DNA of 40,456 nucleotides from Dehalococcoidales bacterium (lineage in GTDB: Bacteria > Chloroflexota > Dehalococcoidia > Dehalococcoidales > RBG-16-60-22). The stretch covers positions 1 through 40,456 of the forward strand of contig JAQTVW010000004.1 in NCBI GenBank assembly GCA_028706655.1, given 5' to 3'. The notes under the pieces were generated by a model. It was not told the origin of the DNA, searched no databases, and saw nothing but the letters and a program-made list of their open reading frames with translations. Of the stretch, positions 21,341 to 33,037 are shown in pieces (within the stretch, counting starts at the first letter, position 1; each line of letters begins with the position of its first letter). Both the position numbers and the translations under genes were made by a program.

Positions 21341-22915
21341 TCAGGCTTCGGAATTAACCGGCACCACCGCGTACTTTCTTCGGGCGAGTTTCTCGCTGTT
21401 CACCAGTATTGCTTCCGCATCATGGTTCAGTTGGGACACCAGCAGGATGACCGCAGGCGCGGCGACTTGCCGGGTTGCTGTCGTTAAAGCAACGGTAGCG
21501 GGATGGTTGAGGGCAGCCTCCTCTATCGCCCGATGTTCAAAATCCAGCATCGCCAGCAGCCGTTGCGCTGACTCGGATTCGACACGCTTCAATTCGGAGA
21601 TATTCCGGCGCAGTCTTGCCATGTCCGGTTTTGCCAGGTATTGTTGCGGAGACTCGGTCATTGTGATGTCCCGGGTCAAAGCCAGCGCCCGTTTCAGGAT
21701 TTCACGAGGTTCGGTGATGGCAGTAGTAAGCAGGACTTCGTGCTGGTTGTAAGCGGTCAGCGCGGCAGGGATATGCTCGCGGGTGAGGGTTAGCGCCGCC
21801 GTGAGCAGGTTAAATGCCAGGTTATCGGCTTCTTCAGCGCTGCTCACGGAGAGATTAACGGCGATGATTGCCGGGGGTCCGCCCGCCGCCGCAAATTCCC
21901 GGACAATGAGCTGCTGTAATTTAATCGTGTGTTTCCAATCGATGCCGCGAAGCGGGTCGCCTGCCTGATAAGTACGGCTGCCGAGGAATTCCACTCCCCG
22001 GTGGGGCAACCGGATATTCTCCGGAGCGGATTCGGAATCCGTGGCTTCGCCGGCTCCTGATTGTTCCAGGTATTTCCGCGCCATCCATTCCGCGTATTGT
22101 GCCTGCGGGATGACGTGTAAATCCAGCGGTTCAAGCGTTTGGTTGACTACCATCAGCGCCCGGGCGTCAGTAACTACGGCGCGAATCAATGGGTGTGTCG
22201 GTCCTGCCAGCGGTGGCGTCAGGCTCAACTCCAGTTTGACATCATGTCCGTTCAAAATGAAATCCTGCGGGGTGATTTCAACCCAATCGTCATCCGTCTG
22301 TACCGAGACGTACAGCAAGGTGTTTGTCCTGCTGCCCAGTTCCATCGTGGCTTTCGCGGTAGCGCCGGCAACAACCCGCAGGCTTACATCCGTCGGCGCA
22401 AGCGGAGAGCGCGGGATATTCATTAATATATTGATGGTCGTGCCCATCAAATAGAGCGCAAACAAGGTTCCGGTTAATAGCAGAACGCGGATATCGAGGA
22501 GGACGGCAATCATGACCACTGCCAGCGTGGTAGTCAGTAATGCGCGGTAGACGGTCGTGACCCGGCGTCCCGCCCCGACAACGATTACCGCATGAAAGTC
22601 AGAAGAGCTCTGCCTGAGGTGATAATCGAGTAGATAGATTAACGGCAGGAGTGCCGCCGCCGAAATAATTTCGATGACGAAAGGTGTGAGCCCGGTCATT
22701 CGAGCGAGAATTGCGGCAATCGCAAGCGGCAGGAGAAATATAGTGAAAATTGAGGCGACGATGTTAATACGCGGCGCCGCCGGTCGCAGGGTCAGGACAG
22801 TCATACCCAGAAATAGCACGAGAGCCAGAAACAGGTAAGGCGGCGGTGACAGGATGGCGGCAACCAGTAATATAAACAGTGAATATGATTGACATAATCT
22901 CACCAAACTGCCCAT
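21341..22915 (-). CDS. DUF58-family membrane protein
   Basis: A 524-residue protein with hydrophobic segments in the first 170 residues, followed by a beta-rich extracytoplasmic-like part and the DUF58 signature: SRTYQAGDPLRGIDWKHT and LIVREFAAAGG. DUF58 proteins have a von Willebrand A-like fold and usually sit next to MoxR ATPases; their chemistry is unknown. The ATG at 22915 is 2 bases after the moxR stop. Later segments (residues 345-500) with ITEPREILKRALAL and repeated Ala-rich helices fit the vWA-like domain. It is the last gene of the cluster. Confidence 0.88.
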   Translation of the reverse strand: MGSLVRLCQSYSLFILLVAAILSPPPYLFLALVLFLGMTVLTLRPAAPRINIVASIFTIFLLPLAIAAILARMTGLTPFVIEIISAAALLPLIYLLDYHLRQSSSDFHAVIVVGAGRRVTTVYRALLTTTLAVVMIAVLLDIRVLLLTGTLFALYLMGTTINILMNIPRSPLAPTDVSLRVVAGATAKATMELGSRTNTLLYVSVQTDDDWVEITPQDFILNGHDVKLELSLTPPLAGPTHPLIRAVVTDARALMVVNQTLEPLDLHVIPQAQYAEWMARKYLEQSGAGEATDSESAPENIRLPHRGVEFLGSRTYQAGDPLRGIDWKHTIKLQQLIVREFAAAGGPPAIIAVNLSVSSAEEADNLAFNLLTAALTLTREHIPAALTAYNQHEVLLTTAITEPREILKRALALTRDITMTESPQQYLAKPDMARLRRNISELKRVESESAQRLLAMLDFEHRAIEEAALNHPATVALTTATRQVAAPAVILLVSQLNHDAEAILVNSEKLARRKYAVVPVNSEA

Positions 22916-22917
22916 GG

Positions 22918-24156
22918 TTATCTGAGAGAGAGCCCGGTACTAACGGCAACGGCGGCAACAACCAGTGCCAGGGCTATCCACATCCAGTGCCGCTTCAAAA
23001 GAGTCTGAACGGTTATAGCCCCAGTTCCCGTTGCAGCTTCAACAACGGTTTGCGGTGGTATTTCATTTTGATTAACGGGAGGACTGACAGCATGGGAAAC
23101 TGAAGAGTCGGTTTTTTGACTCGATGGAGTAATGTGTTCCGGAGGCCGGACGTTATGGCTCGCTGGTTGCGAAAGGTCAGGAACTGGTTTTGCACTGCGT
23201 GCTTCGCCGATGCCTTCTTTGGGTACCGCCGTTTCCTGGATTATCTTTCTGATAACGGCTTCAGGGCTCACGTTGTCCATCTCTGCTTCGCTGCTGAGGC
23301 GGATGCGGTGAGTCAGTGCTGGTAGGGCAAGCCGCTTGATATCATCAGGAATGACAAAATCTCTACCTTGAATGAATGCCAGAGCGCGGGCGCCCTTGAA
23401 CAGTGCGATGCTGGCGCGGGGACCCGGGGCGTGGGAAACATCGGGCTGGTGTCGTAGGTTATCGATAATATCGACGATGTACCGACGGACATTATCGGCG
23501 ATGTGTATTTGTTTTACATCCTGCTGGAGCTGGATGATATCAGCCGGGGTGGCGACAGCCACAACCTGCGGCGCCGAAATAGCATCAATATCGCGGAGAA
23601 TGCGGTCTTCCTCTTCGACACTCGGCAGAGAACTCCAGACGCGGAACATGAACCGGTCTGACTGTACCTCACTGAGCGGTGAAGTACCGATGCTGCCATA
23701 GGGAATCTGGCTGGCGATAAGTATAAACGGCTGTTCCAGCCGGTGAGTTTCCCGCTCGATGGTGACCTGTTGTTCCTGCATCGCCTCCAGCAGGGCAGAC
23801 TGAGTGCGCGGAGTGGTACGGTTCAGTTCATCCGCCAGAACTACGTTGGCGAAGATAGGTCCGGGCATGAAGGTGGCGGCGGCATCGGGACGGTAGAGAT
23901 AGAAACCCAGGATATCAGCAGGGAGCATATCCGGCGTACCCTGCACCCTCTTGAACTTCCCGCCGATGGCGGTGGCAAACGTGCGTGCGATAGTAGTCTT
24001 GGCTGTGCCCGGTAACCCTTCAATAAGGACATGTCCCTGGCTCAGCAGTGCGATGAGCAGGATTTCCTTGATTTCACTCTTGCCGATGACTACCTTGGAA
24101 ACCTCGGCAATGATGTTTTTCAGAAGTTGGCGTCGATTTGTCAGGTCAGTAGTCAC
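22918..24156 (-). CDS. MoxR-type AAA+ ATPase with a membrane-anchored C-terminal tail
   Basis: MoxR ATPases act as chaperones for partner proteins, often with vWA domains. Walker A is GLPGTAKTT (about residues 46-54), Walker B is VVLADELNRTTPRTQSALLEA, and the sensor segment is ASQIPYGSIGTSPLSEVQSDRF in place of the common ATQNP...E. At 412 residues it is about 90 longer than typical. The extra part is a Pro/Ser/Thr-rich linker (about 325-385) ending in a hydrophobic helix, WMWIALALVVAAVAVSTGL, which would tether the ATPase to the membrane. The start is GTG at 24156, overlapping the stop of the preceding gene by 4 bases. Confidence 0.9.
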   Translation of the reverse strand: MTTDLTNRRQLLKNIIAEVSKVVIGKSEIKEILLIALLSQGHVLIEGLPGTAKTTIARTFATAIGGKFKRVQGTPDMLPADILGFYLYRPDAAATFMPGPIFANVVLADELNRTTPRTQSALLEAMQEQQVTIERETHRLEQPFILIASQIPYGSIGTSPLSEVQSDRFMFRVWSSLPSVEEEDRILRDIDAISAPQVVAVATPADIIQLQQDVKQIHIADNVRRYIVDIIDNLRHQPDVSHAPGPRASIALFKGARALAFIQGRDFVIPDDIKRLALPALTHRIRLSSEAEMDNVSPEAVIRKIIQETAVPKEGIGEARSAKPVPDLSQPASHNVRPPEHITPSSQKTDSSVSHAVSPPVNQNEIPPQTVVEAATGTGAITVQTLLKRHWMWIALALVVAAVAVSTGLSLR

Positions 24157-25058
24157 GATAGACTCCTATTCAGATAATCAGGCTGGCGGCGCCATAATGG
24201 AAAAAGAGTGATGGCGAATACCAGCGCTATCAGTAATAATAGCCCTAACGGCGCGGCAAGTAAACTGCGCAACTTTGCCAGCATTGCTTTTGTCTCCTGC
24301 AGATTGGAGGACGACAGGTGCGACTGGTCGAAATACACGCCTTCCGGACTTGTTTTGATAATGTTTGACAACAGATTGCTGTTGCTTGCCATTGTTGCCA
24401 TGCTGTTGATGAAGATGCTGGCATCAGCAATCAATATGACTTGCCCGCTGCCGAGCATGTGCCGGGAAATGACCGGCTTTCTGCCGGTTGGTTCGCCTTC
24501 GTTCCAGGTCCGGTTACTGTTATCATCAAGGAAGCTGAACAGGGACGATTGTGCCATAATCTCGCCAGGCGCGATATTAAGCAGGCTCGTAGCATGGTTC
24601 AGTACCAGGCTCTCCAAACCACTGGTGAGAGAGTCATCGGTAAAGATTGAAACGCGGGGCAGCCACTCGCTGTTGTAATTGGAAAGCGGATCGAGCAGCG
24701 CCCGCCCGGAAAACCGTGCGGTCAATCCCAGATACTCCAGAACATCGTTCCCGTAGCCGTAATCATCTGCCAGTACCAGAGCCCCGCCGCTTGAGGTGAA
24801 GCTGCGGATGGTATCAAGCTCGTCCGGAGTAAATTGAAGATAGGGGACGAGAATGAAAGTCGTTCCTGCTGAGGCGGAAGGCAGTCTGCTGAGGGATTCA
24901 ATAGGCTTGATTTCGTTGCCGGCTTGCAGATTCCCGGTGCCGTTCCAGCAATGGTTTTCAAAGCGAAAATCTTCATGGGAAGGAAACAGCCAGACGACGA
25001 TAACGAGGGTGAGGGTCACGGTAATCGCCAGTATCAGCAAAAATCTACGGAGTATCAC
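24153..25058 (-). CDS. DUF4350-like membrane protein
   Basis: A roughly 301-residue protein with an N-terminal membrane segment (LLILAITVTLTLVIVVWLF), an exported middle domain with glycine-rich loops (SFTSSGGALVLADDYGYG), and a second membrane segment at the C-terminus followed by WRRQPDY. It matches the DUF4350 layout commonly found with MoxR, DUF58 and DUF4129. I choose the GTG at 25058 since AGAGGAG lies 7 bases upstream and this start overlaps the preceding gene by only 14 bases; a longer frame would overlap by 110. It overlaps moxR by 4 bases. Function unknown. Confidence 0.75.
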   Translation of the reverse strand: MILRRFLLILAITVTLTLVIVVWLFPSHEDFRFENHCWNGTGNLQAGNEIKPIESLSRLPSASAGTTFILVPYLQFTPDELDTIRSFTSSGGALVLADDYGYGNDVLEYLGLTARFSGRALLDPLSNYNSEWLPRVSIFTDDSLTSGLESLVLNHATSLLNIAPGEIMAQSSLFSFLDDNSNRTWNEGEPTGRKPVISRHMLGSGQVILIADASIFINSMATMASNSNLLSNIIKTSPEGVYFDQSHLSSSNLQETKAMLAKLRSLLAAPLGLLLLIALVFAITLFPLWRRQPDYLNRSLS

Positions 25059-26997
25059 GGCAAAGCTCCTCTTTAATCGTTGCGGCAATCTTTTCCGCCT
25101 GTGCTGCGGCGGCTTCATCTGGATTGCGCGTGGAATAGAGAGCCGATTCGGCAATCGCAGTCAGTGAGGCAAATTGCTGGCTTGTCTCCTGTGTTAAGGC
25201 GGCGGCATGTCCAAGAAATTCACGGAGGGTATCTGCCGGATGCATCAGCGCGCCGGTTTTGTCCTCCACAGCTTTGAGTCCAGCCCGGTAGGCTTCAAGG
25301 ATTTTAATACTGATTCCGGACGGCTTGCGGCTTTCTGTTGTCCGGGAAATCAGCAGAGCAGGTTCCGGCTGGGAGATCGATGGCGGTGTTTCCCGCCGGG
25401 GCTGCGGGACAAAGTTACGCCGGAAGCGTATTCCCAGGAAAGTGATAACAATAGCCAGAAGTAATATTGTAAACGGGTTAAAAGCAGATATTTGCCTTGT
25501 TATGGAGGTTGTAATCGGGATGTCAGCCAAAGGCTGAATCGTGATGGAAACATCCTGCCGGCTGAAAACAGGCCAATGGATGCCGGACGCCAGAGATGCG
25601 GCGAAACTGCCGTCAGCGCTGGTGTTGACCGTGCCGGCAGCGTCATTCAAACGGACAGTGACTACAGCATTGGCGATGGGTTGTGCTGCATAGTAGATTG
25701 TACCTCTGACGGAAATTTGCCGGGACAGGAAGACAAGCGGAGTCATTTGAATATCAGCGGTGACCGGTAATTCCCGTATCATGACCATGGACTGGCTGAC
25801 GCTTGTCCCGCAAGACGCCCCGGCAGGCAGAACGATGACCTTCAAAACATGTTCACCGCTGGAAATATTCAGATGTGCTTTCACTTCAACGCTGAAGCTC
25901 TCTTTTACAGTCCGGGCAGCGAGTAATGATTCATCCAGCATCACAAGGATATCACGTTCCGGAATGTCGCGGGTAGTGATTGTGCCGCTGATGTTAAACG
26001 GCAGTCCGGGGTAGGCTGTTCCGGGCGCGGCAAGGTCGAGTTTCGTGGGGTAGACGCTGGCGTCAACGACAACCCTGCTGATGACACCCGAATAGACCCC
26101 GGCATCTTTGTCACCCGGTGTGTATTGTGCTTTTACCGGAAACGGAGCGGTGAAAGTGTCCCGGTTGCGGTACGGAAACGTCCATTCATTTGGAACAGTA
26201 ATGTTCTCGGTGTACGTTCCGTTGCCATCAGTGATGGCGGTGGCGATAGTCTTATTGTCTGTTACTATTTCTATCGGGCGGGCAGGCAGCGGCATTCCGA
26301 CAGCGCTGAGTATGCCGGAAACAGTCACGGTATCTCCGGCCAGCACTGATGGCGTATCGATTATGAGTGTGAGTTGTGTGGGTGTAAGCTCGGACTGCTG
26401 CTGTAATCGGCTCTCTTGAAGGGTATCCTGCAGCCTGTCAAATTCCGCGATAAGCAGCTGAATCCGCCGCAGGCTGTCTTGCAGGAGGTCGTATTGGGTC
26501 TGATAGATGCTGGATGACGCACCTGCCATCAGTCCCGTCATATTTGTCAGGCTCTCAGTGGCGGCAGTGATTTCGGTCGATAACATCCCTGCCTGCTGCA
26601 GGGATACATCAGCCTCAGCCAGAACCGGTACGGCGGTATCGATTTGGTTATCGTCAATCAGGTTGGCAGCCTCCTCCAGCAGTGTTTCTAATCGGCTGAT
26701 GGTATCGGAGAGTTGACTGCAAAAATCGTTATAACGATTAACAAGATAGCGGAGATCCTGAGGCAGCCGCACGTCGGTCATGTCATCTAATACCACTGCG
26801 GCGTCATGGTATTGCCCGGCGGAAATGCGGTTGAAAAAATTGCGGTACTGGAGAAGAAGCATCGCCGTATCGATGCGTTCTCCGGCAAGAGAGGGATTTT
26901 CGTGGGGTATTTGTGATTGTTTAGCGAAGGCAGGTATATTAAGAAACAGTACCGCTAGTGTGACAGCGCACGAAGCAATGAGAATCGCCCTCTTCAT
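25045..26997 (-). CDS. Exported multidomain protein with a C-terminal DUF4129-like domain
   Basis: A 650-residue protein with a clear signal peptide (MKRAILIASCAVTLAVLFL, cut probably after AFA), a long alpha-helical region (about 40-210, coiled-coil-like), two to three beta-sandwich domains resembling Ig or carboxypeptidase-regulatory folds (for example LAGDTVTVSGILSAVG and PGLPFNISGTITTRD), a membrane segment (FNPFTILLLAIVITFLGI) and a cytoplasmic tail. The tail YRAGLKAVEDKTGALMHPAD looks like DUF4129. No transglutaminase Cys-His-Asp is apparent, although DUF4129 is often fused to one. I start at the ATG at 26997, where the signal peptide begins; the ribosome site is weak. Confidence 0.78.
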   Translation of the reverse strand: MKRAILIASCAVTLAVLFLNIPAFAKQSQIPHENPSLAGERIDTAMLLLQYRNFFNRISAGQYHDAAVVLDDMTDVRLPQDLRYLVNRYNDFCSQLSDTISRLETLLEEAANLIDDNQIDTAVPVLAEADVSLQQAGMLSTEITAATESLTNMTGLMAGASSSIYQTQYDLLQDSLRRIQLLIAEFDRLQDTLQESRLQQQSELTPTQLTLIIDTPSVLAGDTVTVSGILSAVGMPLPARPIEIVTDNKTIATAITDGNGTYTENITVPNEWTFPYRNRDTFTAPFPVKAQYTPGDKDAGVYSGVISRVVVDASVYPTKLDLAAPGTAYPGLPFNISGTITTRDIPERDILVMLDESLLAARTVKESFSVEVKAHLNISSGEHVLKVIVLPAGASCGTSVSQSMVMIRELPVTADIQMTPLVFLSRQISVRGTIYYAAQPIANAVVTVRLNDAAGTVNTSADGSFAASLASGIHWPVFSRQDVSITIQPLADIPITTSITRQISAFNPFTILLLAIVITFLGIRFRRNFVPQPRRETPPSISQPEPALLISRTTESRKPSGISIKILEAYRAGLKAVEDKTGALMHPADTLREFLGHAAALTQETSQQFASLTAIAESALYSTRNPDEAAAAQAEKIAATIKEELCRDTP

Positions 26998-27013
26998 GGA
27001 TAATCTTTGGTTG

Positions 27014-27265
27014 TCACGAAATAATTCGGAGTATCTGTAGTGATAGTGCAAAAAGAAAACCGATGAATAGCACGATGCTGATAACAGTCAGGCTGCGCTT
27101 AGCTTTAGCATCCAGATGGATAAATAGTTCAGTGATGGCAAGCGCGACGGCAACGTATACCGTGTAGTAGGTTGCCAGGGTTTTTACACCTAACGCCGTC
27201 ATGACGACAGTGCCGACCAAAAGAGCTGTCGATATACTCAGAATATAGAAGTTATATATCTTCAA
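27014..27265 (-). CDS. Small integral membrane protein, unrecognised
   Basis: An 83-residue protein with three predicted hydrophobic segments (around residues 7-25, 30-48 and 58-80) and a short basic loop, DAKAKRS. It begins at a TTG at 27265 that overlaps the stop of the preceding gene by 4 bases, with AAAGG seven bases upstream, so it is probably translationally coupled. I do not recognise the family. Its place in the MoxR/DUF58/DUF4129 cluster suggests a membrane subunit of the same assembly; archaeal clusters of this sort also carry small membrane proteins. Confidence 0.65.
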   Translation of the reverse strand: MKIYNFYILSISTALLVGTVVMTALGVKTLATYYTVYVAVALAITELFIHLDAKAKRSLTVISIVLFIGFLFALSLQILRIIS

Positions 27266-28002
27266 TCAAGTACCTTTAGCAAAACGGAGTATTTCTTTTT
27301 CCCGAAGTCTTCCTGAGCTATCGTCATGGGTCTGTTCCAGGCTTCGGCAGCAAGCGTTGCGACTATTGAAGCGAGCGGGTAACCGAGACTGTGATGCGAC
27401 CAGGTGGCGCGGTTGTCAATGCGTGGATTTCGGATAGTTACCTGTATGTGACTGTTTTCGCAAATGACACTGGCGCCGTCAGCGACGCCCAGCTTACCGC
27501 TGAAAAGAGCTGTCAAGGAGTTCTCTAACTCAGCTGGTGTCGGTCCGGGGCGTGTCTCTACCATATCGACGGCACTGCTTCCGATAGTCGAAAGAAGTAA
27601 TCCGATTTCATCAGGCGCGGTACCGTACCGGGTGATGAACCGCTGGGGGATGGCTTTAGTTATGGTGGGGGATATTGAATTGACGTTCAACGGGATAAGG
27701 GCGCGTGGCTTTTCGCCGGTCAAAGAAGAAGGAAGGTAAATAGCACGTGATTTGATACCCAGTTCCTCAACTACAGAGGCGATGTTATCAATACCGGTTT
27801 CAAGGAGTAATTGGCAGACTTCAGGAGGCAGGCGCGGTACCGTACTCCCAAGCGCCAGCAGGATAAAAGACAGTATCAGCAGGCAAATGCTCAGAGCCGC
27901 CAGCCACGTAACCTCAAGAACAAAGTAGGCAGGTGGAAATAAAATGAGTCCGGTGATGAGTAATGCCAGCCCCGCCCATATGTACGGGTTTTTCGTACGC
28001 AA
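27262..28002 (-). CDS. Membrane-anchored protein of unknown function, first gene of the MoxR cluster
   Basis: About 246 residues: two adjacent N-terminal membrane helices (roughly 8-30 and 34-52), then a soluble, probably cytoplasmic domain of about 190 residues with VPRLPPEVCQLLLETGIDN at its beginning and a conserved-looking end, LASIVATLAAEAWNRP. I do not recognise the domain. The TTG at 28002 is preceded by AGGAGG at six bases, which decides the start over a TTG 51 bases further out. A promoter lies directly upstream, so this is the promoter-proximal gene of a six-gene operon running to 21341. Confidence 0.7.
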   Translation of the reverse strand: MRTKNPYIWAGLALLITGLILFPPAYFVLEVTWLAALSICLLILSFILLALGSTVPRLPPEVCQLLLETGIDNIASVVEELGIKSRAIYLPSSLTGEKPRALIPLNVNSISPTITKAIPQRFITRYGTAPDEIGLLLSTIGSSAVDMVETRPGPTPAELENSLTALFSGKLGVADGASVICENSHIQVTIRNPRIDNRATWSHHSLGYPLASIVATLAAEAWNRPMTIAQEDFGKKKYSVLLKVLD

Positions 28003-28031
28003 CCCTCGCCTCCTCCCTGAAACTGTAACTA

Positions 28032-28060
28032 AGTATATATCAGCATATAGCAAAAGTCTA
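28032..28060 (-). promoter_or_regulatory. Predicted promoter of the MoxR/DUF58 cluster
   Basis: On the minus strand TAGACT (28055-28060) and TATACT (28032-28037) are 17 bases apart. Transcription would begin near 28025, about 23 bases before the TTG start, leaving room for the AGGAGG site. Confidence 0.5.
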
Positions 28061-28103
28061 TCCCTGTCTGATTCGGAATATCAGGGCGTGGCTGAATTTA
28101 TCG

Positions 28104-28158
28104 TTTTAAAAAGATTGCTCCAGCCGGAGCATCGGATGAAGTCCCGGACTGGAGCAAT
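28104..28158 (-). terminator. Intrinsic terminator after the PT-repeat surface protein
   Basis: A perfect 10-base stem pairs ATTGCTCCAG (28114-28123) with CTGGAGCAAT (28149-28158), extended inward by CCGG/CCGG. On the minus strand it is followed by CTTTTTAAAA. It lies 26 bases after the stop of the surface-protein gene and isolates that gene from the MoxR cluster. Confidence 0.8.
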
Positions 28159-28183
28159 GTATATCTATATTTGTTTTATTGTT

Positions 28184-29113
28184 TTATTCGCGGCGTGCCT
28201 TTACCTGCCAGACCACGATTGCGATGATGATGATACCGACAACGATCGCCACAACAATCCACCAGTTAAATCCGCTCGGCGTCGGAGTGGGCGGAGTAGG
28301 GGTAGGCGTAGGCGTGGGTGTCGGCGTCGGTTTAGGCGTCGGTGTCGGCGACACGGTAGGCGTAGGGGTCGGCGTCGGTTTAGGCGTTGGCGTCGGCGAC
28401 ACGGTAGGCGTAGGGGTCGGCGTCGGTTTAGGCGTTGGCGTCGGCGACACGGTTGGGGTAGGCGTTGGAGTGGGTGTAGGAGTGGGTGTAGGAGTAGGCG
28501 TGGGCTGCGGTGCCGGCGCCGGAGGTACAGCCATGACTTCAAATACAGTGAAATGGGAAGTCGTACCGCTGACGGTACCTGTAACTGTATTGACGACAAT
28601 GTTGGACAGTGTCACCCACTTCCCTGCTGTCTGGTCATAGAATGCAATAACCAGGTCTTTCTCAGCAACACCAACCGGTAAGCTGGCTTTGACATATTTC
28701 AGAGTGATGGTTATCGGCGGTGAGAACGTGGCGCCGCTTGGTCCAAAATCATACGCCAGACCGATAACGCGGGCATCATCAGGAGGTGCCGGAGGCGGTG
28801 TCTGGGACAGCACGATTAATATGCTGTTCAAAGGAGTACCGGATTGGGATAAAGCTGTGGTGCCATCGTTAATATCTACCGTACAATAGCCATCAGCCGA
28901 TGTGGCTGTCACGTCATTCGTGACAACGCCGCTGCCGGTGATGGTATCTGATAAAGTTGTATAGCCATCCGGCAAGCCGCCGCCGCCGCCGCCGCCGGCG
29001 GAATCACCATAACCTTGCGCGTAGACTGTTGATGGCGGCACGAACGACAGTAAGGCTGTCAGCAACACCAGGCATAATATTGCTACCGTTCCAGTGTAAA
29101 CCTTGTTCTTCAT
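28184..29113 (-). CDS. Surface protein with Pro-Thr repeat stalk and C-terminal membrane anchor
   Basis: A 309-residue exported protein: signal peptide (ending near STVYAQ), a polyglycine stretch (about 40-46), a folded beta-rich domain (about 50-195) with the segment [20 protein letters not shown] and [10 protein letters not shown], a Pro-Thr-rich stalk of about 80 residues, and a membrane helix ([19 protein letters not shown]) ending in basic residues. This layout is common for cell-surface proteins of Dehalococcoidia and some archaea. The stalk is a wall-spanning or glycosylated spacer by analogy. AGGAGG precedes the ATG. The XRE-TPR regulator gene lies 77 bases upstream on the same strand and may be co-transcribed. 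Confidence 0.85.
28321..28464 (-). repeat. 48-bp minisatellite (three copies) in the Pro-Thr stalk
   Basis: Three tandem copies start at 28321, 28369 and 28417. Each encodes the 16-residue unit [16 protein letters not shown] and the copies differ by only a few bases. Since the period is a multiple of three, copy-number change would lengthen or shorten the stalk without breaking the frame. Confidence 0.9.
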
Positions 29114-29190
29114 GTTAATAACCTCCTAAATATATTTGCTACTTCAGTGCAAGTCCTATCGGACTGCCCCAAGTTTTCGCAACAATCGCT

Positions 29191-30069
29191 TCATTTCTGT
29201 AGTGTCGGGTCAAGTGCTAATGCCCTATCGAAATCGGAAATTGCTTGCTCATAATATCCCAGACTGATGTAGGCTAAACCCCTGTTGCTATACGCGAGGG
29301 CAAGACCGGGGTCAAGTTCGATCGCTTTGGTACAATCGGCGACGGCTTGTTCGTACCTCCCCAATTTCACGTAGGCTAAACCCCGGTTACTATAGGCGAG
29401 TGCAAGTTTCGGGTCAAGGTCAATCGCCATGGTGCAATCTGTAATCGCCTGTTCGTATTGTCCCAGTTCGAGATATGCCCAGCCCCTGTTATTGTAGGCG
29501 AGAGCAAATCCCGGGTCGAGTTTAATCGCCTTGTTAAAAGCTTCGATGCCTTTGGTGTACTCTTCGCTGTTGTTAAAACTGACTCCCTGGTTATTGGCAG
29601 CAATGGCTGTTTCTGAGGTTGGCGCGCTAAACCACAACATTACGCCGAACAACACTGCCAGCGAAGCAGAAAACACTACCCTCGCCCAGTTCTTATGCGC
29701 CGTGATCATTGTAGACAATCCTTCAAACGACCGAAACGCTCCCTTTTTCTCACTGACAGGATTTGTTTCTCTATTTCCGCTCTCCGCCCGTAACTTTTTC
29801 AGTGTCTTGTGGTCCTTCAGCATCTCGGCGATATCTGAAGGTATTTTGCCGGCGAGCACTATCAATTCATCTCTATCGGTATTCAAAGCCCCGGCAAGAC
29901 TGTTGATTACTTTTTCACTGGGTGGCGGCAGGATACCGTTTTCAATCTTACTGAGGTACGTAAAATCAACCTCGACTTTTGCAGCCAGTGCGCGTTGCGT
30001 CAGCCCGGTCTCTATTCTTAATTGTTTAAGGCGACTGCCGAATCTCTTGGCATCTTCAATGTTTTCCAT
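29191..30069 (-). CDS. Membrane-spanning XRE-type regulator with extracytoplasmic TPR repeats
   Basis: A 292-residue protein. Residues 10-65 form an XRE/Cro helix-turn-helix (RLKQLRIETGLTQRALA, then VDFTYLSKIENG). A single hydrophobic segment follows (about 127-148, VVFSASLAVLFGVMLWF). The rest is four TPR units of 34 residues, each with the pattern ALAYxNRGxAYxxLGxYEQA. Topology predicts DNA-binding inside and TPRs outside, that is, a one-component transmembrane regulator. The start ATG at 30069 has GAAGG upstream. Two related palindromes lie 38-98 bases upstream and one overlaps its own -35 box, suggesting autoregulation. Target genes and the signal are unknown; the nearby surface protein and pilins are candidates. 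Confidence 0.87.
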   Translation of the reverse strand: MENIEDAKRFGSRLKQLRIETGLTQRALAAKVEVDFTYLSKIENGILPPPSEKVINSLAGALNTDRDELIVLAGKIPSDIAEMLKDHKTLKKLRAESGNRETNPVSEKKGAFRSFEGLSTMITAHKNWARVVFSASLAVLFGVMLWFSAPTSETAIAANNQGVSFNNSEEYTKGIEAFNKAIKLDPGFALAYNNRGWAYLELGQYEQAITDCTMAIDLDPKLALAYSNRGLAYVKLGRYEQAVADCTKAIELDPGLALAYSNRGLAYISLGYYEQAISDFDRALALDPTLQK

Positions 30070-30094
30070 AGATATACCTTCACAGATATAGCTG

Positions 30095-30123
30095 ATTCTA
30101 GCTCATGTTGAGTGAAAAGTCAA
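30095..30123 (-). promoter_or_regulatory. Predicted promoter of the XRE-TPR regulator gene
   Basis: On the minus strand TTGACT (30118-30123) and TAGAAT (30095-30100) are exactly 17 bases apart. Transcription would start near 30088, giving a leader of about 19 bases. The -35 box is half of a palindrome (30108-30123). Confidence 0.65.
30108..30123. promoter_or_regulatory. Candidate operator 1, overlapping the -35 box
   Basis: TTGAGTGAAAAGTCAA: half-sites TTGAGT and AGTCAA with a 4-base spacer. One half-site is the -35 box of the XRE-TPR gene, so a bound regulator would block RNA polymerase. Confidence 0.55.
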
Positions 30124-30151
30124 TAGGTTTTAGCAAACCGGGGGCGGCTTG

Positions 30152-30167
30152 TTGAGTAATGACTCAA
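30152..30167. promoter_or_regulatory. Candidate operator 2, upstream of the -35 box
   Basis: TTGAGTAATGACTCAA: perfect half-sites TTGAGT and ACTCAA with a 4-base spacer. It has the same design as operator 1; the centres are 44 bases apart, about four helical turns, which places both sites on one face of the DNA. Confidence 0.55.
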
Positions 30168-30206
30168 ATACAGACGTAGAATAGCTTTGGGCGGCGGTTA
30201 GTATCG

Positions 30207-31058
30207 CTACGGATTTATTTGCCAGCAGCTGATGTCAAGTAGACTGGTACCCTGCCATACCCCAGCCCTGATGGAAGACTTCTGTCCGGAATCGTTGGAT
30301 GCTTGCGCTGTGATAGTATACGGGAGACTGTCCGAGTCCCAAACGGTGCCGACATCATCACGGGTAGCGCGGACGAAACCGTGTCCCTCGATCCCATTGA
30401 TGCCTTCCGCCCCACTGAGTTCGAAGGAATGATCTTTACTGGATCCCGCGCTGATAGTCGTCGGGCTTGGCAGAGTCCAGATGACAGTGATGCCGGAACC
30501 GGGATACCCGTTGACATCGGGATCAAGACTTGTGATGTCACCGCCGGTAGAATCTTCGACAAAGCTGATACCTGCCGGAAAATCGATTAATATTTGTTCT
30601 ATTTTCATGTTGCCGCTGCCATTGTTAAAAAGATTCATCGTGTAGTAATAAACGCCGGCGCTCCAGGTTATTTCCTTGGTAATAATCAGCCAATCCGAGT
30701 GTTCTCCGGACCCGCCAATCATTTCGCCGAAAACAACAGTCACTTCGTCTATTGTCACGCCTACAGTCATCCCGTTGATGCCGGTCAGTTCGTACGAATA
30801 AGGGAACGAAGCGGGCTTGTCGTTAACCAGTTTCCAGAGCGCATCCTCGATACCGGCTTCCGCTGCGTAAAGTCCTTTTGTTTTTGCTTCGGTTGCATCA
30901 CTGCTTTTAAGACTGGTAGCAGCGTAATTCAGGGAAGGTACGGTAACAAGACTCCCAAAAACCAGCAGCGCCAGGACAATCGGCAGCGCCTGCCCGGACT
31001 GGCCGCAACAGATGCGTTTCCACCACTTTTTCAAAGCACACTCACATTGTAAAATCAT
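30207..31058 (-). CDS. PilX/TadG-like exported protein of the pilin cluster
   Basis: A 283-residue protein with one N-terminal hydrophobic helix preceded by a short basic stretch (GQSGQALPIVLALLVFGSLV), then AEAGIEDALWKL, the usual AEAG-IE-AL motif of PilX-type minor pilin components. The remainder is a beta-rich domain with DUF11-like features (FPAGISFVEDSTGG). It lacks the GFxxxE prepilin cleavage site. Its ATG overlaps the stop of the preceding pilin gene (ATGA). It probably belongs to a type IV pilus or pseudopilus; the assembly ATPase, platform protein and prepilin peptidase are not in this window. Confidence 0.75.
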   Translation of the reverse strand: MILQCECALKKWWKRICCGQSGQALPIVLALLVFGSLVTVPSLNYAATSLKSSDATEAKTKGLYAAEAGIEDALWKLVNDKPASFPYSYELTGINGMTVGVTIDEVTVVFGEMIGGSGEHSDWLIITKEITWSAGVYYYTMNLFNNGSGNMKIEQILIDFPAGISFVEDSTGGDITSLDPDVNGYPGSGITVIWTLPSPTTISAGSSKDHSFELSGAEGINGIEGHGFVRATRDDVGTVWDSDSLPYTITAQASNDSGQKSSIRAGVWQGTSLLDISCWQINP

Positions 31059-31567
31059 TGCCGCTGATCAATTCCATATTCGCGGGAAACTGTCCTTTCA
31101 CCAAAATGTGTCTGGATGTTTAACTGCCAGACATGACCTTGCTGGGTGAAGCCAGCGCCAGCGATGTAGTCCGCTACTTGCCTGGTCTTGTTTTCTGTAA
31201 CCACATTTTCTCTGTCCCGGACAACGAACGTGCGGTTCAGCTTTTGCAGTGAACCCGAGTTGAGCCAGAGATAACGGATATCGTAAGAGTCACCATTCTC
31301 CCAATCCTTCCAGAAGATGGAGATGAACTCATCATCGGAAGTACAGGGATCATCACCGAGCGTGATATTCTGAGAACAGATGACATCCTGACTTATCCAG
31401 TAGCCTGCCTGCTGGGCGTGGCTCACCGCCACCGCCTGGTTATCGTTGCGCTGCGTACTGGTTATCAGTTGCGTTACCGTCATGCCGGCACCAATCGCGA
31501 TCAGGGAAGAAAGCCCGAGAACCACGACCAGTTCAATTGTAAAGAAGCCCCTTTCACTTCTTGTCAT
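31055..31567 (-). CDS. Type IV prepilin-like protein (PulJ/PilW-like)
   Basis: A 170-residue protein with a classical prepilin leader: short basic leader, cleavage after Gly in RGFFTIELVVVLGLSSLIA, and Glu at mature position 5. The rest is a globular domain with two cysteines (in ICSQNITLGDDPC) that could form a disulfide. The ATG overlaps the previous stop by 4 bases and the following gene overlaps its own stop by 4 bases, so the three pilin genes are coupled. Confidence 0.82.
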   Translation of the reverse strand: MTRSERGFFTIELVVVLGLSSLIAIGAGMTVTQLITSTQRNDNQAVAVSHAQQAGYWISQDVICSQNITLGDDPCTSDDEFISIFWKDWENGDSYDIRYLWLNSGSLQKLNRTFVVRDRENVVTENKTRQVADYIAGAGFTQQGHVWQLNIQTHFGERTVSREYGIDQRQ

Positions 31568-31932
31568 CGGTCTACCTTATATATTTTAACGGATAGTACA
31601 GTCTTGCCGTTGCGTGTTGCACTGACCGTCACTTGCTGTATGCCGTCATCGCTGACGTGGACCAACGACGTTGAAGGCGCGGGAACCGTCCAGCCGGCGG
31701 GAATGTCCATCGAGCCATCAATGGGATAAGTTGCCGGATGGGATTGGTACGCGCAGCTTTTAACGTATTCAATTTCGCTGCGCACGAGGCTGTCAGCAAT
31801 CGCCTGCTCGCTGGTGATTACGGTAGCTTTGGTAGTCGTTGCCATACCGCTGAGCAGGGCGACTGCCACGATACCGAGTATCGCCAGCGCGACAAGAGTT
31901 TCAATGAGAATAAAACCGCGTTCGGCTTTCAT
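31564..31932 (-). CDS. Type IV prepilin-like protein (PulI/PilV-like)
   Basis: About 122 residues with a six-residue leader (MKAERG) and a prepilin helix FILIETLVALAILGIVAVAL, Glu at mature position 5. I use the ATG at 31932. A TTG 27 bases further out sits about at the predicted transcription start and lacks a spaced ribosome site. First gene of a three-gene coupled set (31932-30207). Confidence 0.8.
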   Translation of the reverse strand: MKAERGFILIETLVALAILGIVAVALLSGMATTTKATVITSEQAIADSLVRSEIEYVKSCAYQSHPATYPIDGSMDIPAGWTVPAPSTSLVHVSDDGIQQVTVSATRNGKTVLSVKIYKVDR

Positions 31933-31967
31933 GCCTGTATATCCCGTTTTTAAGTGCAAACCCCCCT

Positions 31968-31996
31968 ATAATATTTTCACCGAAATACCTGGTAAA
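31968..31996 (-). promoter_or_regulatory. Predicted promoter of the pilin operon
   Basis: On the minus strand TTTACC (31991-31996) and TATTAT (31968-31973) are 17 bases apart, with a start near 31962. The rest of the 31997-32200 intergenic region holds no feature I can support. Confidence 0.42.
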
Positions 31997-32200
31997 TCCA
32001 ATAGTCTTTTAGTCATTTGCGTATGGCAATTTAGTACTAGGCAAAAGCATAGCGTTTCAGGCACTGCAGCAATTATAATTATTCAATGCGAGTGACCTGT
32101 TTACAGAAATGATATTAACAGGATTGATATTATTAGCCCGGGTTTGTTTATCGTTTGTTTATAGATACCGTGATAGTCTGATGTCGGTTGAGAGTGACCT

Positions 32201-32836
32201 ATGAATCCGAAATCTTTAACCAGACTAGTTGAAGAATCCACGGCAGTAGCAACTGGCGCGAACGCTGCGGTACCGCGCCAGAGCAAGCCTTCCGTGCAGG
32301 ATTTTATGTTCCTGCTCAGCAAGGTGAAGATGCTCTTTGACCTTCCCGAGACAGAAAATATATACAGATTTATCGCCGTGTCACTCTCGGAATTTCTGAA
32401 CAGTTCGGTGGTGTTTGTCAGTTCATATGACCAGCCTAAGAACATAATGAAAGTGCAGGGACTGGCTGGATTGGGCGGCTATACCGAAAAGATAGTACAT
32501 ATGATTGGTTCAAATCCTGCCGCTTTGTCTACACCGATGACGGAAGATTGCCGCAGGGGCCTGGTTACCAGCAAATTCACCAACGTTGGCGGGGGGATTT
32601 ACGAACTTGCGAATCACTCTTTACCCAAAATCGTATGCTCCGGCGTGGAAGAGTTTATCGGAATCAGATATACCTACGCAATGGGGCTGACCTGGCACGA
32701 TAGGATCCTGGGCAGCGTGGCGGTGTTGAGCCGAGTGGAAATCCGCGATTCTGCCGTAATCGAAACCTTCATTAACTATGCCGCGCTGGCGGTCCGGCAG
32801 AGGCTGGAGAAAGAAAACAACCCCGCCGATACTTAG
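32201..32836 (+). CDS. Stand-alone GAF-domain protein
   Basis: A 211-residue soluble protein. After about 32 low-complexity residues comes a single GAF-like domain, with FDLPETENIYRFIAVSL at the start and the closing strand/helix pattern HDRILGSVAVLSR followed by VIETFINYAALAVRQRLE. GAF domains bind small molecules or act as dimerisation modules; no output domain is fused. GAGAG precedes the ATG and a clear terminator follows, so this is a monocistronic unit. Ligand and partner unknown; the membrane regulator or response regulator nearby are conceivable partners. Confidence 0.78.
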   Translation: MNPKSLTRLVEESTAVATGANAAVPRQSKPSVQDFMFLLSKVKMLFDLPETENIYRFIAVSLSEFLNSSVVFVSSYDQPKNIMKVQGLAGLGGYTEKIVHMIGSNPAALSTPMTEDCRRGLVTSKFTNVGGGIYELANHSLPKIVCSGVEEFIGIRYTYAMGLTWHDRILGSVAVLSRVEIRDSAVIETFINYAALAVRQRLEKENNPADT

Positions 32837-32857
32837 CTGATTATTTGAATGGAAGGT

Positions 32858-32891
32858 AAAGAGCCCTCAGAAATAGGGGCTCTTTTATTTT
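32858..32891 (+). terminator. Intrinsic terminator after the GAF gene
   Basis: AAAGAGCCC (32858-32866) pairs with GGGCTCTTT (32877-32885), followed by a T-rich tail to 32891, 22 bases after the stop codon. Confidence 0.85.
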
Positions 32892-33037
32892 GCCAATCCC
32901 AAGATAGTTCAGGATAGGTAGTCTATTCCAGCATTCAGCTTCCCTTGATACTTATAGTCATGGCGCACTAGGATTACAAGAAGCTGTAACTGCATTCAAG
33001 TAAATTTTACCAAGACATGTTTATGATATAAATAATT

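Follow-up and report, generated by a model that had tools for sequence, protein, structure and literature searches.

The window, the whole stretch of 40,456 nucleotides that was analysed, carries on its minus strand a gene for a predicted membrane-spanning regulator and, behind it, a gene for a surface protein, with two candidate operators in front of the pair.

30151..30167 (-), putative operator O2, TTGAGTCATTACTCAAC, 44 bp upstream of O1; second sites occur in 15 loci
30105..30123 (-), putative operator O1, TTGACTTTTCACTCAACAT, overlapping the -35 box and conserved upstream of orthologues
30118..30123 (-), -35 box TTGACT within O1, 17 nt from the -10 box
30095..30100 (-), -10 box TAGAAT; a -10-like hexamer is equally spaced in aligned orthologues
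29191..30069 (-), XRE-TM-TPR regulator gene, 292 aa (open reading frame, Pfam, AlphaFold2 model)
29839..30042 (-), XRE DNA-binding domain, residues 10-77, recognition-helix region VDFTYLSKIENG (HTH_31 E 6e-14, HTH_3 E 9e-12)
29626..29682 (-), single membrane helix or signal-anchor, residues about 126-148 (hydropathy maximum from residue 131; AlphaFold2 helix 126-147)
29599..29607 (-), A-I-A motif behind the membrane helix, putatively signal peptidase I-like (orthologue comparison)
29200..29619 (-), four TPRs, predicted to lie outside the membrane (TPR_1 in four stretches; eight helices with pLDDT >90)
28184..29113 (-), downstream surface-protein gene, homologous to the ectodomain fused to XRE-TM elsewhere (best E about 1e-38)
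28526..28975 (-), ZU5/GAIN-like domain of the surface protein, residues 47-196 (AlphaFold2 pLDDT 93.9; Foldseek)
28547..28555 (-), HFT motif, located between the final two strands where the ZU5/GAIN-like domain ends (AlphaFold2)

At the N-terminus of the regulator, Pfam places HTH_31/HTH_3 at residues 9-69; the best-ranking models for the XRE domain are HTH_3, HTH_31 and HTH_19, and the solved structures nearest to it by sequence in a PDB profile search include SinR, DdrO and C.AhdI. Residues F36, Y38, L39, S40, K41, E43, G45, P48-P50 and S51 of this domain are invariant among 11 orthologues. The AlphaFold2 model (mean pLDDT 84.1) comprises the XRE helices, the membrane helix and eight TPR helices, the linker being disordered, and the TPR helices of the model resemble consensus TPR proteins in Foldseek. 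The membrane helix is kept in orthologues, with a topology that is assigned from charge alone. Pfam, hydropathy and the model thus confirm the architecture that an earlier, sequence-only reading of this DNA had described, namely XRE followed by a single membrane helix and four TPRs. RodZ, too, is built as HTH, then one TM, then an outside domain, and on that model the XRE domain would be a cytoskeletal adaptor and not a DNA binder. Such a role is highly improbable here, as the RodZ-type HTH_25 stays under its cut-off in fused orthologues and has no entry for the window protein, the RodZ ectodomain is absent, and conserved palindromes lie over the gene's own promoter.

The palindromes in the window are TTGAGTGAAAAGTCAA at 30108-30123 and TTGAGTAATGACTCAA at 30152-30167, with a centre-to-centre distance of 44 bp. 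Their sequences and spacing are exactly those given in the sequence-only reading, as is the placement of the TTGACT -35 box within the first of them. The TAGAAT -10 box follows this box after 17 nt. For the motif TTGA[GC]T-N4-A[GC]TCAA with at most one mismatch, 0.16 occurrences are expected by chance in the window, where two exact ones are found. Across the whole 1.8-Mb genome the two palindromes are the sole exact matches, and one-mismatch matches elsewhere number 6, compared with 5 for a control pattern. An Rfam search of window positions 28000-33000 returned no match.

A search with an N-terminal profile found the XRE-TM module encoded by 19 of the 156 genomes of the order, the window's genome included; relatives on genome contigs that matched solely in the TPR part were excluded. 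Outside the order, a class-wide search gave XRE relatives only, all of them without the membrane helix. The analysis covered 20 loci, one per genome plus a second copy in G127, leaving aside a truncated copy without a site (L108) and XRE fragments from the end of contig G051:C23. Nearly all genomes compared are incomplete draft assemblies. Contig ends truncate L094, L101 and L105, and the frame of L106 stops early. A genus is shared by G004 and G017, and likewise by G000 and G001.

A clear site lies upstream of the start in 19 of the 20 usable loci, which gives this family the palindromic candidate operator at its own promoter that characterises XRE/HTH_3 autoregulators. In 18 loci, representing six families of the order, the site reads TTGACTTTTYACTCAACAT or nearly so, with the -35 box as its left half and a -10-like hexamer 17 nt after TTGACT. 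The comparison with orthologues that had been suggested as a check on the proposal therefore came out in its favour, with the site present in 19 of 20 loci and over the -35 box in 18. Of the two remaining loci, L107 has a weak site variant only; in L105 a separate -35/-10 precedes the near site, which lies just before the start. Because these two deviate, and because L091 and L101 show a single detectable site and L093/L096 only a half-site as their second, the two-site layout is not universal.

Over 17 aligned loci (with one representative for the genus pair G004/G017), the 18-bp site averages 1.79 bits per column, against 0.43 upstream and 0.25 downstream. Promoter spacers are normally unconserved. 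Here the middle and right half of the site, which include the promoter spacer, reach about 1.7 bits, nearly the level of the hexamer, and in this alignment spacer conservation exceeds what a -35 box alone explains. An A-rich stretch (GCCAAAAG-like) about 12 to 5 bases before TTGACT is also conserved in many orthologues.

A second site was found in 15 loci, 14 by a score above 12 (next-best matches scored at most 9) and L105 via contig overlap. The spacings between sites are 42, 43, 44, 51, 52, 53, 53, 53, 54, 63, 73, 73, 74, 94 and 94 bp, and they cluster at multiples of a full helical turn (resultant length R 0.87 for a period of 10.5 bp, 0.90 for 10.25 bp). This phasing was noticed on the first eight loci; the seven later loci were held out with the phase fixed beforehand, and gave p about 1.5e-4. 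With one value per family and turn number, a collapse that removes relatedness from the phasing statistic only partly and whose turn binning slightly favours the result, p was about 6.5e-5. The statement that both sites share the same helical face, made originally from a single locus, hence holds over 15 loci with differing spacings. The simplest explanation would be that selection keeps two protein dimers facing the same side of the DNA.

XRE domains related to C.AhdI often both activate and repress, and the domain here is among these relatives. Since most two-site loci have O2 upstream of the promoter, the protein could be an activator, or an activator at O2 combined with a repressor at O1, in the manner of C-proteins or lambda CI. 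This is unlikely given that in 18 of 20 loci the -35 box itself falls within O1 and that O2 stands 4 to 9 turns away, a distance too variable for contact with RNA polymerase; moreover, some loci have no O2, and the near site of L105 is downstream of the promoter hexamers. We infer repression rather than activation from this arrangement.

All matches to TTGACTTTTYASTCAAC without mismatch in 30 genomes sit at the regulator gene itself, and the same exact core site was found in none of 11 control genomes without the gene. Because exact core matches are confined to the gene's own locus, the circuit appears to be self-only, and judged by the distribution of sites the regulator very probably controls only its own operon. 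The genome search for a regulon proposed in the sequence-only reading yielded none, with extras at chance level only in the window's own genome and in the 30 genomes; a regulon beyond the own operon, which is an optional feature of XRE/HTH_3 autoregulators, was thus not seen in this set. On inspection, two one-mismatch sites, at G004:C134 close to a response regulator and at G008:C19, seem to be chance occurrences. A site pair at G127:C85 proved to belong to this same gene, broken across two contigs, and yields one further spacing, 94.

The class-level relatives without a membrane helix offer a view of the site outside the anchored family. In 8 of these 13 a related site, with at most two mismatches, lies upstream of their own XRE gene, typically as TTGACA.TCAACTCAA and mostly within about 60 bp of the start; no convincing second site was seen in the 13. 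Since soluble relatives have a similar site, binding to the own promoter seems to precede the membrane anchor. The same similarity could also be taken to mean that another XRE protein of the cell, a soluble one, binds the sites, and that the membrane protein does not bind DNA. This is very unlikely, as no other protein in the window's genome matches the XRE-TM query better than E 1e-5, and among the genomes searched no exact core site lies away from the gene or in a genome that lacks it.

On the outer side of the membrane the family is more varied. In most relatives the XRE-TM part carries a two-part surface ectodomain and a second, C-terminal membrane helix, and in L105 and L107 (G127 and G128) it is fused to ectodomains of >1,000 residues; the L105 ectodomain contains Ig-like, glucodextranase-B and immune-inhibitor-A MAM-like domains. 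A TPR outer half is found in four loci (G000, G051, G133 and G015, the last being cut by a contig end and assigned to this type from its first residues), and in all three readable TPR loci the next gene encodes a secreted protein homologous to the fused ectodomain. On this comparison the outer half is exchangeable between TPR and surface protein. The tree needs 3-4 changes between the two types, with low support for its deep branches, and a single TPR clade was set aside on that basis. Within the window's family the gene holds the same position before a conserved block of NfeD-like, DUF4129, DUF4350 and MoxR genes, and the exchange therefore appears to have happened in place. In the window this block, at 21341-28053 (-), consists of DUF58, a MoxR ATPase, DUF4350, DUF4129, a small protein and an NfeD-like membrane protein, and most of it adjoins the regulator within the same family. 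A separate paralogue, L106 (G127:C43; a 346-aa ORF), has two tandem XRE domains before the membrane helix; its frame stops early, and a surface-domain match is found further downstream.

A surface protein and pilins had been named as the neighbours of the regulator. The surface protein is indeed conserved beside relatives, but the pilin-like genes (PilX-like and minor pilin, 30207-31959 (-), upstream of the regulator) adjoin it here but are not conserved beside the orthologues, and a pilin link was rejected on that ground. The surface-protein gene probably shares the regulator's operon, from which it is separated by a 77-bp gap. Its product is laid out as a signal peptide, the ZU5/GAIN-like domain, a PT-rich stalk and a C-terminal membrane helix, and shows 62% identity to the protein of the same-genus genome G001 over 248 columns, part of which is low-complexity. 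The predicted model of the domain matches ankyrin ZU5 in Foldseek (E 3e-5, prob 1.0, TM 0.5-0.6), with the GAIN structures of the adhesion GPCRs CD97/BAI3 also among the best matches and weaker ones to UNC5b and CARD8/NLRP1 entries, so that by its modelled fold the surface protein would fall within the ZU5/GAIN superfamily. H141 and F142 are invariant in 8 aligned homologues and the next residue is T or S (SHF[TS]); by this conservation, and by analogy, the HFT motif is a possible autoproteolysis site. In the superfamily the active-site motif is CxH (PMC3482391), and this is absent from the surface protein here, where SHF has no Cys before the His.

Taken together, the locus probably encodes an autorepressor through which the promoter of a surface protein responds to the level or state of that protein in the membrane. 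A membrane-anchored XRE dimer would bind the palindrome O1 and so cover its own -35 box, the XRE protein would also occupy O2 further upstream on the same helix face, and cooperative or looped binding at O1 and O2 would shut the promoter off. In the split arrangement of the window this promoter would drive the regulator and also the downstream ZU5/GAIN-like surface protein; most relatives have the regulator and the surface protein as one polypeptide. The input may be abundance, assembly, or the binding of a ligand or partner by the TPR or surface domain. The membrane level or state of the product would therefore set its own transcription, and the locus can be likened to a self-contained thermostat that governs a surface protein. 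The autoregulation put forward in the sequence-only reading is, at the level of sequence comparison, largely supported.

Behind the helix, nearly all orthologues have P..(V/T/A)xA (TQA, VKA, VRA, TKA, VSA, AVA, AIA). Because this AxA-type motif is conserved, the lasting anchorage of the protein is uncertain, and the membrane helix may be a cleaved signal peptide. Repression would then be coupled to export: the helix would serve as a signal peptide whose N-region is very long and binds DNA, the unexported or uncleaved protein would repress, and signal peptidase I would free the ectodomain while the XRE stub is destroyed or changed, so that transcription follows export. This possibility is a tentative one. 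It would agree with the signal-peptidase c-region-like segment behind the helix in nearly all orthologues, with the positively charged residues ahead of the helix, and with the C-terminal membrane anchor that the fused ectodomains have of their own and that would keep them on the cell after cleavage. An in-frame ATG shortly before the helix, present in 14 of 20 loci, also fits, with an SD match of at least 5 at that ATG in 6 of 20 loci, compared with 4.7% of internal ATGs generally, a background that is not composition-matched. However, the helix could be an uncleaved anchor, and the internal-start signal is seen in a minority of loci. In the window, the in-frame ATG at 29707-29709 (-) before the membrane helix has AAGGA 9 nt upstream and is a possible second start. 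Dual translation from an internal start, with SD matches enriched but in a minority of loci, was kept as a side possibility. Slightly more doubtful again is the fuller version, in which a surface protein carries its own repressor before a cleavable signal peptide, and export and cleavage, possibly with ZU5/GAIN-like autoproteolysis, lift repression. The window's split form would in that case be a variant with TPRs replacing the ectodomain. If true, this version would couple transcription directly to secretion.

Few transmembrane transcription regulators have been validated so far (PMC10269533), and a literature search on XRE membrane autorepressors or on this lineage found nothing with the terms used. 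As a membrane-anchored autorepressor, the family would be a minimal case for how such a factor finds its promoter, with apparently one target and a clear operator. Its value lies in a pair of sites that stay in phase by whole turns although their spacing changes, in soluble relatives that carry a similar site and can serve for comparison, and in natural swaps of the outside domain. For hypothetical surface proteins of a little-known lineage it points to a role, and as a model of how the cell surface could feed back on a promoter it can be tested.

Among known systems, RodZ shares with the regulator an XRE-like fold, one TM and an outside domain, whereas the protein here is without a RodZ-type HTH at the cut-off (HTH_25 in orthologues), without the RodZ ectodomain or C-terminal domain, and has candidate operators at its own promoter. 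Repressors of the SinR, DdrO and C-protein type have operators and autoregulation. SinR, DdrO and C.AhdI, which are among the nearest solved XRE domains, are soluble, whereas the protein here is predicted to be membrane-anchored and has a second candidate operator, placed at whole turns from the first. RsgI anti-sigma factors combine an N-terminal cytoplasmic regulator, one TM, a variable outside sensor and proteolytic signalling (PMC12203970); RsgI holds a sigma factor, whereas the cytoplasmic part here is the DNA-binding domain itself. The surface domain has the same predicted fold as the ZU5/GPS (GAIN) domains of bacterial surface proteins, PIDD, NLRP1 and adhesion GPCRs (PMC3482391, PMC8081665), with HF[TS] between its last two strands, and related ZU5/GAIN domains self-cleave at a comparable place (PMC3482391, PMC8081665). 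In its architecture the regulator is of the broad kind of one-component transmembrane transcription regulators (TTRs), and belongs neither to the ToxR/CadC family nor to RodZ. As in ToxR, CadC, TcpP and other TTRs, surveyed in PMC10269533, whose main text makes no mention of XRE or HTH_3, a cytoplasmic DNA-binding domain (here XRE by Pfam and PDB profile, with a conserved putative operator), one membrane helix and an extracytoplasmic part are joined in one polypeptide, according to hydropathy, the model and the orthologues. It differs from ToxR and CadC in having an XRE domain (HTH_3/HTH_31, with no Trans_reg_C match) in place of their OmpR-type winged helix, and from the TTRs in that it probably represses its own operon only and in that its ectodomain is exchangeable with a surface protein.
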